Shown here piece after piece: positions 44,218 to 51,573 of a stretch of 64,000 bases of DNA. The stretch is from Nostoc sp. NMS7 (GTDB lineage: Bacteria; Cyanobacteriota; Cyanobacteriia; Cyanobacteriales; Nostocaceae): assembly GCF_017115085.1 (NCBI RefSeq), contig NZ_JABXKJ010000201.1, positions 1 to 64,000 on the forward strand, written 5' to 3'. The position numbers and the translations under genes were made by a program. Position 1 is the stretch's first letter. The number at the start of each line of letters is the position of its first letter. The notes beneath the pieces were generated by a model. That model was given only the letters and a program-made list of their open reading frames with translations, made no database searches and was not told where the DNA came from.

Positions 44218-45335
44218 GTGGAAAAATCCTTAACATCTTCGCCTGGAACCAATCCACAGGCTTCGTTAGGTGTAAACGCACACTCAAAGATGTATATACC
44301 ATCCCTAGATGGAATGAGAATTCTTGCTTTCATAGTTGTTTTTTTATCCCATACAGGACTTGCGAACGCTTTTCCGGGAAGTTTCGGTGTAACAGTATTT
44401 TTCTTTCTCAGTGGTTACTTAATTACAACTCTTCTCAGGCAAGAGTGCGATCGCTATGAGACTATTGATTTTAAACTCTTCTATCTAAGACGAATCCTGC
44501 GTATTTGGCCGTCATTTTATCTAGTTTTGGGGTTAGGAGCTGGCTTAACTATCTTAGGATTACTTCCGGGAAAAATTCTTCTACCAGCCTTCTTGGCTCA
44601 GTCTCTGCACTATACCAACTACTATGGAATTTTTTTTGGCGATGGATTCGTCGCCGGTAGTTGGGTATATTGGTCTCTCGCTGTTGAAGAACACTTCTAT
44701 TTACTTTTTCCACTGCTTTATCTAGCTCTACGTAAACTGCGTGTGAGTTCACGCAGACAAATGCTCATTTTTTGGGGATTATGTTTAACGGTCTTACTTT
44801 GGCGGTGTATTCTAGTTTATGGTTTTCAAGTACCTGAACTACGTATATTTTGTTCAACAGATACCCGGATAGATAGTATTCTCTTTGGTTGTGCATTGGC
44901 AGTCAATAATAATCCAATGCTGGATACACAACAAGATTACTCTAATAAACTCTGGAAGTATTTCTTTCTGCCTGCCGGAATAATCTTGATTCTTTTTTCA
45001 TGCCTATCTCGCTCACCTGAGTTCGACAAACCATTCGTTATACTATACAGGGAATTGCCTTATACCCAGTCTTTATTACCGCTATTCGCTTTCCCAGTTG
45101 GGGATTATTCGCAGTGCTAAATTTAAAGTGGATGCGTTTTCTTGGTGCCCTATCTTACTCTTTGTACCTTGTCCATTACACTGTTCTTTTCGGTGTTTGG
45201 AAGTATTTCCCCCAATTAGATAAAGTTCTCCAAGCCGGAATTGCTCTATTAATTTCTTTTGGATTAGCCTATATGATTCACAAGTTTATAGAGTTGCCAT
45301 TGGGACGGCTACGCAAAAAGTTTTCCCGGGCATAA
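44218..45335 (+). pseudogene. Acyltransferase 3 (OafA/YrhL-like), frameshifted
   Basis: A multi-pass acyltransferase starting at a GTG, with YIPSLDGMRILAFIVVFLSH (motif with the catalytic His), FFFLSGYLITTLL and YWSLAVEEHFYLLFPLLYL. The first frame runs to 45120 but loses homology after CLSRSPEF. From that point the next frame reads RQTIRYTIQGIALYPVFITA, then IRFPSWGLFAVLNLKWMRFL and ALSYSLYLVHYTVLFGVW to 45335. Loss of one C at about 45023-45026 (GAGTTCGACAAACC) explains the break. Intact relatives O-acylate surface polysaccharides. It may be a real lesion or a sequence error. Confidence 0.85.
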
Positions 45336-46280: not shown

Positions 46281-48626
46281 GTGGACAAACTCTACTGGCT
46301 AGACGAAATTAAACTACAAGACCGTGCCAAAGTAGGTGACAAAGCATTTTACTTGAGCAGAATTATGCAACGTGGCTATCCGGTGGTGCCTGGTTTTGTC
46401 GTTTCGGCAGAAATTTTGCGACAATTTCTCGAAAATCTCAATAGTTCAGAGTCATTAGTGGCTGACTTACCCCATTCTTCGTTACACCTAGATGTAGCTA
46501 ATTGGCGTCAACTTCAGCAGGTAGCTGGTCGCTTGCGCCAAGAAATTCTGACTGCAACTGTGCCACAGCAATGGGTAAGTACAATTTTCCAAGCAGCTAG
46601 AAAATGGCAAACTGGCTGTTTGATTCTTCGACCAACCTTGGCAGTATCAACTGCTACCCCAGGTATGAAGAATATATCTGGCTTGTTGGAGTCGGTATTT
46701 TGCCAGTGCGAACCCGAAGCGATCGCAAAAGCGTTAAAACGTACCTGGAGCCAGATGTTTCGGGCTAGAAGTCTCCTATATTGGCAGCGAGCCGGAATTG
46801 ACCTCCAACAAATTAATCTCGCCGTTTTGGTGCAACCTGTTGAAAATGCGATCGCCAGTGGTTTACTTAAAGCCAACTCCTCTGGGTGGGAAATTGAAGC
46901 TACTTGGGGATTAGGAATTGCGATCGCTCAAGGTGAAGTCCAGCCAGATGTCTACTACATTCAACAAGAAACTGGGGTTGTGTTTGAGCAACAACTGGGC
47001 AATAAAATGCTGGCTTATGGTGTTGATGATCCCGCACCTGGAGCTTTTTCGCAAGCGATGCCCAAGTCAGTGCTAACACCAGATCATACTTGTCTGAGTA
47101 CTTACTTAATTGAGTCAGCCCAACAAAAACAGTACGCCTTACAAAAAGAATACTTACAACAAATAATTTCTCTGGGAACTCAACTGGTGAGTGAACTAGG
47201 TAAAACTTTTACGATGAAATGGACTATCGCTGGGCAAACTACATCTGGCAAGCTCTACATAACACAAGTCAGTTCTCCCCAATTTGTAATTCCCCACAGA
47301 CACTTCATTCGGGGACTAGGGGCAGCAGGGGGACGTGTTGTGGCGACTGCCCTAGTAATTAATAATCCTCAACATAAACCCGAACAACTACCCAAGGGAG
47401 TGATTTTAGTAATAAGTGCGATCGCACCTGATTGGTTGCCATTACTGCAACAAGTTGCTGGTATTATCACCGAACAAGGCGGATTAACCAGCCACGCTGC
47501 CATTCTTGCCAGAGAATTAAGTATTGCAGCAGTAGTGAATGCAACATCAGCGACCAGCTTAATCCAAACTGGCGAACGACTGTTGCTTGATGGCGACAGA
47601 GGAGAAGTTTATCGGATTAAAGGAGACTCAAAGGAGGAGATGGAGAGATGGGGAGAAAAAAATCTTCTTTCCCCCCATCGCCCCAACCCGAAAGCGCTCC
47701 CTCCTCCTGTTACTTCTCATCTACCGATGATTGCTACCCAACTGCTGGTTAACTTGAGTCAGTCGAGTTTAATAGAACAAGTGCAAAGCTTACCTGTGGA
47801 TGGGGTGGGATTGTTGCGATCAGAATTGATGGTACTAAATATATTGTCTGGGCAACATCCCAATAGTTGGATTTTAGGCGGACGTCAGGCAGAATTGTTA
47901 GAGCTATGGTCTGAGCAGATTATGCAGTTTGCCCGTGCTTTTGCACCAAGACCAGTTTTTTATCGTTCTTTAGATTGGCCGCAAGATTTAAGAGCATTGA
48001 GTGATAGTTTGCAATCTTCAGCACAGTCGATGTTGGGTGAACGTGGCACTTTTAGCTATTTACGAAATCCCGTAGTATTTGAGTTGGAACTGAAAGCTTT
48101 AGCGAGTGTACAGCAAGCTGGTTACAGCAATGTCAACCTCATGTTGCCCTTTGTGCGGACTGTGGAAGAATTTGTCTTTTGCCGTCGTAAAGTTGAGCAA
48201 GCTCTTTTAACTGAGGTGTCACAGTTTCAATTGTGGATGATGGCAGAAGTGCCAAGCGTACTATTTTTATTGCCAGAATATGTTAAAGCAGGTGCAGCGG
48301 GAATTTCTATTGGCACAAACGACCTAACCCAATTACTGCTAGGAGTCGATCGAGAACAAGGACATCTAGCAAAAGTATTTAATGAACGTCATCCGGCAGT
48401 TATGAGTGCGATCGCTCAACTCATCCAAATGGCTAAAAGTGCTGGCATACCTTGTTCCATCTGCGGTGAAGCACCAGCCCTCTATCCAGAAATTATTGAT
48501 AAGTTAGTGGAATGGGGCATAACTTCAATTTCTGTTGAACCGGAAGCAGTCGAGCGAACATATCAAGCGATCGCTCGTGCTGAACAACGCTTAATTTTAG
48601 CAGCAGCACGACGAAAACTGTATTAG
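46281..48626 (+). CDS. PEP synthase / pyruvate phosphate dikinase-like protein
   Basis: A 781-residue protein from a GTG with the order of PEP synthase: N-terminal ATP-grasp-like part (KVGDKAFYLSRIMQRGYPVV), swivelling domain with the phospho-His in EQGGLTSHAAILARELSIAA, and C-terminal TIM barrel (PVDGVGLLRSELM, VNLMLPFVRTVEEF, MMAEVPSVLFLLPEY, ISIGTNDLTQLLLGVDRE, CSICGEAPAL with the catalytic Cys). The ATP-binding domain is short and degenerate: the usual RSSATAEDLP region is replaced by RPTLAVSTATPGMKNISGLL. It may not use ATP in the normal way. True ppsA enzymes carry the intact motif. Confidence 0.82.
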   Translation: MDKLYWLDEIKLQDRAKVGDKAFYLSRIMQRGYPVVPGFVVSAEILRQFLENLNSSESLVADLPHSSLHLDVANWRQLQQVAGRLRQEILTATVPQQWVSTIFQAARKWQTGCLILRPTLAVSTATPGMKNISGLLESVFCQCEPEAIAKALKRTWSQMFRARSLLYWQRAGIDLQQINLAVLVQPVENAIASGLLKANSSGWEIEATWGLGIAIAQGEVQPDVYYIQQETGVVFEQQLGNKMLAYGVDDPAPGAFSQAMPKSVLTPDHTCLSTYLIESAQQKQYALQKEYLQQIISLGTQLVSELGKTFTMKWTIAGQTTSGKLYITQVSSPQFVIPHRHFIRGLGAAGGRVVATALVINNPQHKPEQLPKGVILVISAIAPDWLPLLQQVAGIITEQGGLTSHAAILARELSIAAVVNATSATSLIQTGERLLLDGDRGEVYRIKGDSKEEMERWGEKNLLSPHRPNPKALPPPVTSHLPMIATQLLVNLSQSSLIEQVQSLPVDGVGLLRSELMVLNILSGQHPNSWILGGRQAELLELWSEQIMQFARAFAPRPVFYRSLDWPQDLRALSDSLQSSAQSMLGERGTFSYLRNPVVFELELKALASVQQAGYSNVNLMLPFVRTVEEFVFCRRKVEQALLTEVSQFQLWMMAEVPSVLFLLPEYVKAGAAGISIGTNDLTQLLLGVDREQGHLAKVFNERHPAVMSAIAQLIQMAKSAGIPCSICGEAPALYPEIIDKLVEWGITSISVEPEAVERTYQAIARAEQRLILAAARRKLY

Positions 48627-48794
48627 TTAGAAGTTAGAAGCAAAGCCGGAGACGCTCCGCCTCCGGTGAGAAGTTAGGAGTTATAATATTAAGTTATCAC
48701 TGCTAAATTACCCATTGTATAGACTATTTTTTAGATGGAGAAATAGGTGTCTCCAGAAGAATTATGAGGTCAATTGTTGGGAGGTTGGTTAAGT

Positions 48795-49271
48795 ATGGGG
48801 TTTCGGGAGGAAGACTCAATAGAGTACGAGATATTCAAGCAATACGAATATGCATTATCTGCAATTGGTGTAGATTTTGGCAGAGAAGACGTGCAGGATA
48901 TCTTAGAAGTATGTTGTTTTGGACTCGAAGATGCTTTAAAAGCCGTCATTGCTTATTGGATTTGGTTGCAGCAGCAAGAAAAACCAATGGAATATCCTAG
49001 CGCTGTATTAATCCGCGCACTTAACGAACAGTGGAAACCAAAAAAATGGCGTGATGAATGGCTTGGTTTGCCCCAATTGCAATCTCAAGGGCAAAGATGG
49101 TATGAGAGTGCTGCTAAGATTTGGGGTTATGATCTGCGTAATCAAACTGTTGCAAATATTGCTTATGACCGAGGAAAAGAGTACATTGTATTCACTAACA
49201 GTAAAGAATTGCTGATAGAGACTGCATGGCGTTGGGAATGGGAACGAGTACTTAACTACGCAACCACTTGA
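48795..49271 (+). CDS. Unknown protein upstream of HNH-DnaB gene
   Basis: About 158 residues from the ATG at 48795, ten bases after GGGAGG. A TTG at 48774 is less likely. It is acidic and Trp-rich (YWIWLQQQEK, EQWKPKKWRDEWLG, ETAWRWEWERV). I cannot assign a family. The stretch PSAVLIRALNEQWKPKKW recalls a pattern (NPAG-LI-A-E-W-P) in plasmid and phage replication proteins; that is weak similarity by eye. It ends 14 bases before the HNH-DnaB ATG, so they form one transcription unit. This hints at a replication-related partner, such as a helicase loader or regulator. Confidence 0.6.
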   Translation: MGFREEDSIEYEIFKQYEYALSAIGVDFGREDVQDILEVCCFGLEDALKAVIAYWIWLQQQEKPMEYPSAVLIRALNEQWKPKKWRDEWLGLPQLQSQGQRWYESAAKIWGYDLRNQTVANIAYDRGKEYIVFTNSKELLIETAWRWEWERVLNYATT

Positions 49272-49285
49272 TAAATAAATATTTT

Positions 49286-50818
49286 ATGTCGCTAAACTAC
49301 TACGAATATATAGATTCTCAGGATTGGCAGGAAGTCCGAAAACTTGCATTACAACGATCCGGGCGTAAATGTCAAATTTGTGGAGCAGTAAATGATTTGG
49401 ATGTTCATCATAATTCCTACGATAATCTCGGTAATGAACGGGAGCATTTAGAAGATTTAGTAGTGCTGTGTTCTGATCATCATCAACTCTATCATGATTC
49501 ATTAGCTGAGGTTCAGAGGCTTACAGACCAAAGATTGGAAGAAAGACTACTTGGAGCTTTACTCCAGCAAAATCCTGCTTTCATTAAAAGCTTGTCTGAT
49601 TTTCCTCCTGATATTTTTACATCTAGTTTGAGAAGAGAAGTTTTTAATTACTTATGTTATAGAGCTAGTGAGGAAAAAGCGATTGATTCGATAATCATAG
49701 CTGGCTATTTAGCCCAGTGTAAAGTTTTGGAAGCAGAATAAGCTGAAAAATTGCTAAATAATTGGGTTAGTTCTTGCCCTAACTTACAGAATACAGAAAG
49801 TTATGCAAAAGAACTATATGAATTATATTTGCGCCGACAAATTCAACAGTTACCTGCTAAAATTACACGGCTTAATCGAAACTACCAGCGACCTATTATC
49901 GAATTAATCGATACTATACAGGCATCTATTCAGGTAATCGCTAACAAAAGTGACACAAATAAATTAATTCATATATCAGATGCTTTAATCGAGACCTTTC
50001 AAAATCTAGAAGAGAGACATATAGGTATAACATTACCTGGCATTGCTTGTGGATTTTATGACTTGGATTTAATGACTAGCGGATTTCAGCGCTCTGATTT
50101 AATTATTGTGGCTGGACGGACGTCAATGGGCAAGTCTGCCTTCTGCTTAGATATTGCTTCCAATGTCGCTAGCCATTATAAACTACCAGTTTGCATCTTT
50201 AGTTTAGAGATGTCAAAAGAGCAAGTTGTCTCACGCTTATTGTCAGCAGAAGCACAAATTGAAAGTAGTTACTTGCGGACAGGTCGCATTACTAAAAGTC
50301 AATGGGAACCCCTATCACGTGCAATATCCAACTTGGCAGAACTTCCAATTTATATTGATGACCGTCCAAATCTTAGTGTTGGTAAAATTCAGTCTAAAGC
50401 CCGCCAAGTTATGATCGAGCACGAAAGTTCTTTAGGGTTAATTGTGATTGATTATATACAGCTATTGACAGGAGATAATGATGAAAATCGTGCGCGGGAG
50501 TTAGCAAAGATTACACGTTCTCTAAAAGGACTAGCCAAAGAACTCAATGTTCCTGTAATTGTATTATCTCAACTTAACCGAAGTGTTGAATCTCGAACTA
50601 ATAAACGACCAATGTTGTCAGATTTAAAAGAGTCAGGTTCTATTGAGGAAGATGCTGATTTAGTAATCATGCTTTACCGCGATGAATATTACTCTCCTGA
50701 TACTCCCGATCGAGGTATTGCAGAAGTCATTCTAGCTAAACACCGCAATGGGCCCACAGGAACAATTAAGCTTTTGTTCAACACACACTTTGCTTGCTTC
50801 AAGAACATGAAGTTTTAA
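49286..50818 (+). pseudogene. HNH endonuclease - DnaB-like helicase fusion, in-frame stop
   Basis: One frame of 511 codons from the ATG at 49286 with a TAA at 49739-49741 (codon 152). Residues about 15-75 are an HNH nuclease: RKCQICGAVNDLDVHHNSYD and LEDLVVLCSDHHQLYH. Residues about 85-190 are a DnaB N-terminal domain (LEERLLGALLQQNPAFIKSL, then across the stop NTESYAKELYELYLRRQI). The rest is a RecA-like DnaB helicase: GFYDLDLMTSGFQRSDLII, Walker A AGRTSMGKSAFCLDIA, CIFSLEMSKEQVVSRLLSAE, Walker B LGLIVIDYIQLL, VIVLSQLNRSVESR. The stop is the only defect. A TTG at 49751 might restart the helicase part. This is not the host replicative DnaB, which lacks HNH. Confidence 0.85.
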
Positions 50819-50910
50819 AGCATTAAGCTACACGTCTATAGGGGGTGTAGTAATTTACCTTGTGTTCTATAAAATAATAGAAAGTCAAGATTTTGATCAA
50901 AAGCCTTCAG

Positions 50911-51573
50911 TCATCGAGGATTTGGGGTCTTATGATCAGCCGATTGGGTCTTGATAGAATATGCATTTTTTGGTTGGCTGACTAAACCTAAAGTTATTCG
51001 TTTCATAATCCAATACAAACCTGCAAGTACCACAAAAGTGATAGTAATAATCACTAGGGGCTGTTTGCCAAGAATTTCTTCTACCCCTTTAGTCAGTACG
51101 GCATCGGGTTGAGTAATAAAATCCCAACTGTTGAAACGCAAAAATCGCCCCCAATAGACACCAACAGCACAGAGAAAATGTGTAATAAACTCAAAGCGCC
51201 AAATCCATTGGCTCTTGCCGATGCGATGTAAGTAGTAACCCCAATTAATTAACGAGATTACATAAGCTTCAAATCCACCGAAAATTACTAACAAATACAC
51301 AGGAATAAGTACCAAAGTAATCATCCATATCGATTGAATCTTGCGGATATCGTCTATGAGGTGAATTACATCAGTCAACAAATATGGTGCATTCGGTAAG
51401 AAAGCATAGAAAACTAAGAATCCTAGCCACCAAAGCCAAGAGCCACCACGCCGAAAGCGAAATAACCACACACTCAAAGCTAAAGGTATAAAAGCCAGAA
51501 ATAAATTCCAAGTCATCCAACTCATATTAATTCGCAAGACTTGCACAACTCTGGCTATCAATTCTTCTTTCAT
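50911..51573 (-). CDS. DUF1361 domain membrane protein
   Basis: A 220-residue integral membrane protein with about six helices. Segments are WNLFLAFIPLALSVWLF, LWWLGFLVFYAFLPNAPYLL with the DUF1361 motif F-PNAPY, TDVIHL, and VGVYWGRFLRFNSWDF. It is common in cyanobacteria and Gram-positives. Function unknown. The C-terminal 25 residues are polar and cytoplasmic. It is a single gene convergent with the helicase gene. Confidence 0.87.
   Translation of the reverse strand: MKEELIARVVQVLRINMSWMTWNLFLAFIPLALSVWLFRFRRGGSWLWWLGFLVFYAFLPNAPYLLTDVIHLIDDIRKIQSIWMITLVLIPVYLLVIFGGFEAYVISLINWGYYLHRIGKSQWIWRFEFITHFLCAVGVYWGRFLRFNSWDFITQPDAVLTKGVEEILGKQPLVIITITFVVLAGLYWIMKRITLGLVSQPKNAYSIKTQSADHKTPNPR

Follow-up and report, generated by a model that had tools for sequence, protein, structure and literature searches.

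A rare two-gene unit of Nostocaceae encodes a DnaB-type helicase fused to an HNH domain

The chromosome of Nostoc sp. NMS7 carries a rare fusion, in which a single reading frame encodes an HNH domain followed by a DnaB N-terminal domain (DnaB_N) and the entire C-terminal helicase domain of DnaB (DnaB_C). The fusion belongs to a previously unnamed two-gene unit, the other member of which is a conserved upstream gene termed ORF1. The genome comprises 8.29 Mb in 271 contigs, and the window analyzed here (a stretch of 64,000 nucleotides) is a chromosome contig. The relevant features of the window are as follows:

46281..48626, plus strand: left flank, pps-like gene for a PEP-utilising enzyme (Pfam domains PPDK_N, PEP-utilizers, and PEP-utilizers_C)
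48757..50806, plus strand: two-gene unit, the DNA shared with the Plectonema radiosum copy (82% identity, 2053 columns; window coordinates deduced via G090)
48774..49271, plus strand: ORF1, 165 aa, with the TTG start as listed; its plasmid relatives align from about residue 8
49268..49271, plus strand: 4-base overlap between the ORF1 stop and the upstream TTG of the fusion, same in four other copies
49286..50818, plus strand: fusion frame, with ATG at 49286, an alternative in-frame TTG at 49268, and one internal TAA
49286..49513, plus strand: HNH nuclease domain, residues 1-76 (profile matches and residue pattern)
49526..49822, plus strand: DnaB N-terminal domain, with the TAA inside it (residues 81-179, the extent of the match in intact G090)
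49739..49741, plus strand: in-frame TAA at codon 152, where all three intact copies have a sense codon
50039..50806, plus strand: DnaB C-terminal RecA-type helicase domain, residues 252-507 (profile match)
50911..51573, minus strand: right flank, DUF1361 gene (Pfam domain)

Coordinates, frame and domain matches agree with a first-pass annotation of the same letters, which had described one frame with an HNH endonuclease, a DnaB N-terminal domain and a complete DnaB helicase, interrupted by a single TAA at codon 152. That annotation overlooked the conserved upstream gene at 48774-49271 and the cassette nature of the gene pair. Residues 11-72 of the window protein match HNH families of PHROGs (best phrog_8048, E = 2.3e-11) and the HNH part of the NCBIfam IscB model (E = 3.8e-7, which is below the IscB family cut-off), while the Pfam HNH models have no match to this region. 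The residues C29, C32, H41/H42, D57, C62, and H66, which we take to be of the metal-binding or catalytic type, are retained across the fusion copies; the profile match and the His/Cys/Asp-Asn pattern place the domain in the HNH endonuclease superfamily, with a predicted nuclease activity. DnaB_N (PF00772) is matched with E = 7e-6 in the window piece (residues 81-149) and with E = 1.2e-11 in the intact copy of G090, a genome of the same genus, and DnaB_C (PF03796) is matched over the whole model behind the window TAA (E = 1e-103) and in G090 (E = 3e-104, model positions 1-255 of 255). The piece downstream of the TAA scores 477.9 with TIGR00665 against a cut-off of 385. With both DnaB domains present, the protein is of DnaB type, and its helicase activity and loading at a fork are predicted. 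AlphaFold models of the fusion and ORF1 are poor (mean pLDDT 40 and 45).

The fusion was identified in 5 of 217 family genomes, namely the window genome, three relatives with intact copies, and Hassallia byssoidea (L029, G112), where an internal deletion follows the HNH domain and ORF1 is split into two frames. The intact frames are open for 516 codons from the upstream TTG and 510 from the ATG in both G090 and Nostoc sp. LPT (L027, G748), and for 517 and 512 codons, respectively, in Plectonema radiosum NIES-515 (L028, G070); over residues 1-151 they are 94% (G090), 93% (LPT), and 79% (Plectonema) identical to the window protein. The search for uninterrupted homologues suggested by the first-pass annotation was productive, and the outcome that it had named as fatal to its view, HNH and DnaB homologues always encoded separately, is contradicted by these three copies. 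At E <= 1e-9, 10 of the 217 genomes have a match, five of them to the fusion and five to a stand-alone HNH frame of 131-205 codons. Further fusions were absent among the matches listed from 118 family, 291 order, and 388 class genomes, in searches that scored few candidates per genome (3 in the class sample and up to 17 in the 217-genome family searches), and also among the matches listed from phage and plasmid records. Contig scans with two short peptide patterns, which detect close relatives only, returned 14 stretches from 3 loci in genome contigs; in viral contigs, 258 stretches found with the N-terminal part included no relative, and 85 stretches found with the helicase part included one distant relative (36%). 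Several candidates were rejected, including the class-search DnaBs of G039, G131, and G652, which align upstream and are ordinary DnaBs lacking HNH; the order-search rows of G250, G334, and G271, which seem to span both domains and are not DnaB fusions; a 'DNA primase' of a Streptomyces plasmid, which matches HNH but is a short gene of 189 codons and not a DnaB; and a Clostridioides phage row spanning the query, which consists of small hypothetical genes. In line with the first-pass statement that no named system has this fusion, we found no description of it in the open-licence literature, where absence is not proof, and no named system of this architecture in Pfam, NCBIfam, PHROGs, or PADLOC.

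The TAA is found in the window genome alone and is most simply read as a recent nonsense mutation. At sites where all other rows agree, the window helicase has 3 departures, including one in the Walker A loop, versus 3, 1, and 2 such departures in the intact copies; since there is no excess, the stop is probably recent, and decay of the window helicase was rejected as proof of an old stop. Because the TAA splits the nuclease from the motor, the window copy is most likely a non-functional pseudogene. For the three intact copies (three pairs, divergence of dS about 0.6), pairwise dN/dS values by the Nei-Gojobori method are 0.226, 0.111, and 0.109 for HNH, 0.40, 0.31, and 0.34 for DnaB_N with the linker, and 0.264, 0.178, and 0.169 for DnaB_C; ORF1 of the same three carriers yields 0.175, 0.187, and 0.265. 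These low ratios indicate that the domains of the intact copies are under purifying selection, and least so the DnaB N-terminal part.

ORF1 has no match in Pfam, NCBIfam, PHROGs, or PADLOC. Its relatives occur in 99 of the 217 family genomes (e.g., loci L174-L199) and are common in Nostocaceae; several genomes contain many ORF1 copies, partly broken. ORF1 relatives are also present on 24 of 72,556 plasmid records, several of them conjugative, whereas 50,697 phage records gave no match. The closest relative (76% identical) is located in G032, alone on a contig that is not a known plasmid. Among 26 stand-alone ORF1 loci, a DnaB match within about 1.5 kb (less at contig ends) was found in none and a weak HNH match in one; similarly, seven plasmid regions with ORF1 relatives contain no annotated DnaB and one HNH gene. 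Since DnaB is missing nearby in all 26 loci, ORF1 is not a dedicated loader. We also rejected the possibility that ORF1 corresponds to the C-terminal part of plasmid initiators, as a profile built from 10 ORF1 sequences found none among the loci examined.

G090 and Plectonema share DNA from 17 bases upstream of ORF1 through to the final helicase codons, and the flanks are unrelated: in Plectonema they encode LytB (IspH, E = 1.5e-76 in Pfam) and HicA (E = 1.7e-18) paired with a HicB-like protein (below the cut-off). Since the common DNA hardly extends beyond the two genes, ORF1 and HNH-DnaB behave as one 2.05-kb unit, which occupies two unrelated chromosomal sites. Inspection of its edges by eye revealed no transposase or terminal repeat, and no integrase, relaxase, partition, initiator, or capsid genes were recognised beside the copies of LPT and Plectonema (the latter on a contig of 9,855 bases). 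Elsewhere in the window, an Acyl_transf_3 acyltransferase at 44218-45335 may carry a frameshift, as its match is divided between overlapping frames of 300 codons (profile positions 2-233) and 73 codons (269-324).

The Nostoc site was surveyed in 50 other genomes of the genus, out of 51 with a match to the DUF1361 gene (G742 was omitted). The interval that separates the PEP-utilising enzyme gene from the DUF1361 gene (48627-50910 in the window) was measurable in 48 of them (not in G733 and G719), where it ranges from 155 to 6428 bp (L099-L149). The unit is present at this site in 3 of 49 genomes, the window included; the rest have other cargo or little. In G755, the site contains three collinear pieces that are 72-79% identical (the ORF1 start with upstream DNA, part of the helicase, and the right flank) and are interpreted as a deletion scar of the unit. 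In a tree of both flank genes, built from 47 genomes (the window and 46 relatives, after removal of G734 and G752, in which these genes are partial), the three Nostoc carriers are not sisters, although several inner branches are weak (0.17 and 0.59 beside the window). In three pairs, the dS of the unit is equal to or lower than that of the flanks (0.06-0.21 vs 0.16-0.25 for the window and G090). The history of the site is best fitted by one old insertion followed by repeated loss, perhaps with exchange between strains.

The first-pass annotation had suggested looking for defence or plasmid genes among the neighbours of the homologues. In LPT, the unit adjoins a gene pair that matches HEC-01, a candidate defence system (E = 5.3e-144 and 4.6e-75), with a baeRF gene between them. 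Pairs of the HEC-01-matching kind occupy 6 of the 48 Nostoc intervals, and baeRF genes account for 32 of the clustered interval ORFs (ORFs of at least 100 aa). The other interval cargo, named by eye, is mostly not defence-like and includes an epimerase, a GGDEF/EAL-type protein, and insertion sequences. A literature search on HEC-01/DUF4276 gave no paper about HEC-01 among the matches listed.

Identity of the helicase half is 52-58% to the closest three DnaB genes in the window genome, at most 56% to class-sample DnaBs among the matches listed, 48.9% at best to plasmid DnaBs (46-49% in the best rows), and 46.5% to the DnaB of phage PaV-LD. In a 22-row DnaB tree, the four fusion helicases group together, apart from the host, plasmid, and PaV-LD rows, on a branch of 0.42 with a support of 93/100, the first measure being one point under the star threshold of the tool. 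The fusion helicase is a divergent DnaB paralogue. It is not the single replicative helicase of its host, given the separate clade and the presence of further dnaB genes, including a host-type gene on contig C266; nor is it an intein-containing DnaB, since HNH precedes DnaB_N and the helicase aligns with other DnaBs with no large gap or insert. Both distinctions had been drawn in the first-pass annotation, and both hold. The host-type dnaB on C266 (L004, L159) is an 899-codon frame, in which the DnaB match falls in two pieces around a large insert, probably an intein. Contigs C27 and C241 of the same genome (L002, L003) carry two plasmid-type dnaB genes that are nearly identical to one another and closely resemble those of small Nostoc plasmids, and an initiator-like frame lies near dnaB on C241, on the same strand. 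As relatives of ORF1, HNH, and DnaB are found apart, the unit looks like a combination of three components, each of which circulates on its own in the Nostocaceae family.

Our preferred explanation, which we put forward tentatively and at less than an even chance, is that the unit is an accessory cassette of Nostocaceae, in which a divergent DnaB ring helicase with HNH on its N-terminal side would bring its own nuclease to foreign replicating DNA. DnaB forms a hexameric ring, the N-terminal domains of which make a collar. Six HNH domains could accordingly be placed on the collar of the fusion ring; ORF1, translated together with the fusion, may help to load or recruit it; the ring would thread onto and unwind the single-stranded DNA of a foreign element that enters the cell or replicates in it; and the HNH domains may nick or cut this DNA near the fork. 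This explanation draws on the low dN/dS of the intact copies, the 4-base overlap in 5 of 5 copies, and the preserved helicase and HNH residues; action on foreign DNA in particular is suggested by the chromosomal two-gene unit, its patchy presence and rapid loss, and the neighbouring candidate defence pair. Points against it are the weak PADLOC matches, the mostly non-defence cargo of the interval, and the ORF1 relatives with no DnaB nearby. In its strongest form, ORF1 and HNH-DnaB would be an undescribed anti-mobile-DNA system, in which a hexameric helicase ringed with HNH is loaded by ORF1, a protein of a plasmid-borne type, onto foreign forks and destroys them; we regard this form as possible, though doubtful.

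Close behind comes the possibility, itself well short of probable, that the unit is a stranded remnant of replication machinery from a plasmid, integrative element or phage once present, with ORF1 as a loader or initiator-adaptor, DnaB as the fork helicase, and HNH as a nuclease that processes DNA or kills competitors of that element. A DnaB gene of their own (48% identity) is found on many Nostoc plasmids, behind a gene annotated as hypothetical or MarR-like, ORF1 relatives reside on plasmids as described above, and the nearest stand-alone HNH gene lies beside parAB on a Nostoc plasmid; however, the carriers hold the two genes alone, with none of the integrase, relaxase, partition, or capsid genes of such elements recognised beside them (L027, L028), the fusion is separated from plasmid DnaBs in the tree, no fusion appears on phage or plasmid records among the matches listed and no ORF1 on phage records, and the closest ORF1 relative is not on a known plasmid. 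Mobility might instead be driven by the HNH domain itself, if a homing-type HNH fused to a helicase moved the unit into a preferred site. Its nearest phage kin are annotated as HNH endonucleases and lie beside DNA polymerase genes in six Streptomyces phages, the non-sister Nostoc carriers share one site, and the low dS of the unit relative to its flanks would fit exchange between strains. We nevertheless consider such selfish movement quite unlikely, as the sites differ between Nostoc and Plectonema/Hassallia, the edges lack terminal repeats (by eye), and the common site is explained equally well by one old insertion with many losses, which the G755 scar supports.

Two further alternatives concern the coding sequence. 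The more ordinary one, a decaying DnaB duplicate that acquired HNH by chance and is functionless in every carrier, would account for the broken copies (2 of 5, with the TAA in the window and the deletion in Hassallia) and for the scar at a sixth locus (G755), but we judge it unlikely, because in the three intact copies each half has a dN/dS far below 1 at a dS of about 0.6 and the catalytic-type residues are retained. The other, advanced in the first-pass annotation, is a switchable gene, where readthrough of the TAA or restart at TTG 49751 yields separate nuclease and helicase. The frame after the TAA is indeed open for 358 codons with no excess of unusual residues, and a restart would remove HNH as proposed; it would also remove the greater part of DnaB_N (Pfam match at residues 81-179). 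In addition, the nearest GGAAG is 17 bases upstream of this TTG, too far for a usual ribosome site, and the three intact copies lack the stop, which makes a switch highly improbable. Action of the intact copies on foreign DNA remains our preferred reading; if it holds, the central replication motor of the cell can become a weapon, and the widespread ORF1 would gain a testable role. If the unit is only a stranded replication gene, it still illustrates cleanly how a two-gene unit is gained, spreads, and is lost within a single bacterial family.

We know of no replicative-type ring helicase that carries its own nuclease, and none was found in the literature searched; several known systems share single traits with the fusion. 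Cyanobacterial chromosomal replicative DnaBs have the same order of DnaB_N and DnaB_C and 52-58% identity over the matched part, whereas the fusion has the extra N-terminal HNH, its own clade, and other gene neighbours. The DnaBs of small Nostoc plasmids are likewise accessory and encoded directly behind another gene; however, they lack HNH, and by profile search their partner genes are unrelated to ORF1. The stand-alone HNH of plasmid pC052_F from Nostoc sp. C052, which adjoins parA/parB, is 46% identical to the fusion domain and shares its His/Cys pattern except for one zinc-type position, but is a single-domain gene of 122 codons with no helicase. Zorya type II, with the HNH protein ZorE, and other defence systems combine an HNH nuclease with a helicase. 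The likeness to Zorya is an analogy of working, accompanied by a weak match of HNH to ZorE (E = 7.9e-4); the fusion locus has no protein of the ZorA/B/D type, and its helicase is of the DnaB type. This ZorE match and that of the helicase to mad8 (E = 1.2e-5) are the best in PADLOC, both weak and confined to single domains, and the full protein set of a known anti-phage defence system was not found by this tool. In phages, Rnl2 RNA ligases with an N-terminal HNH are reported and are proposed in a study of jumbo phages to attack the DNA of rivals (PMC7824862), and Orf recombination mediators are reported to be fused to an HNH domain (PMC4118853). Such proteins resemble HNH-DnaB in that HNH is joined to a nucleic-acid enzyme of mobile DNA, and differ from it in that the enzyme partner is not a ring helicase.
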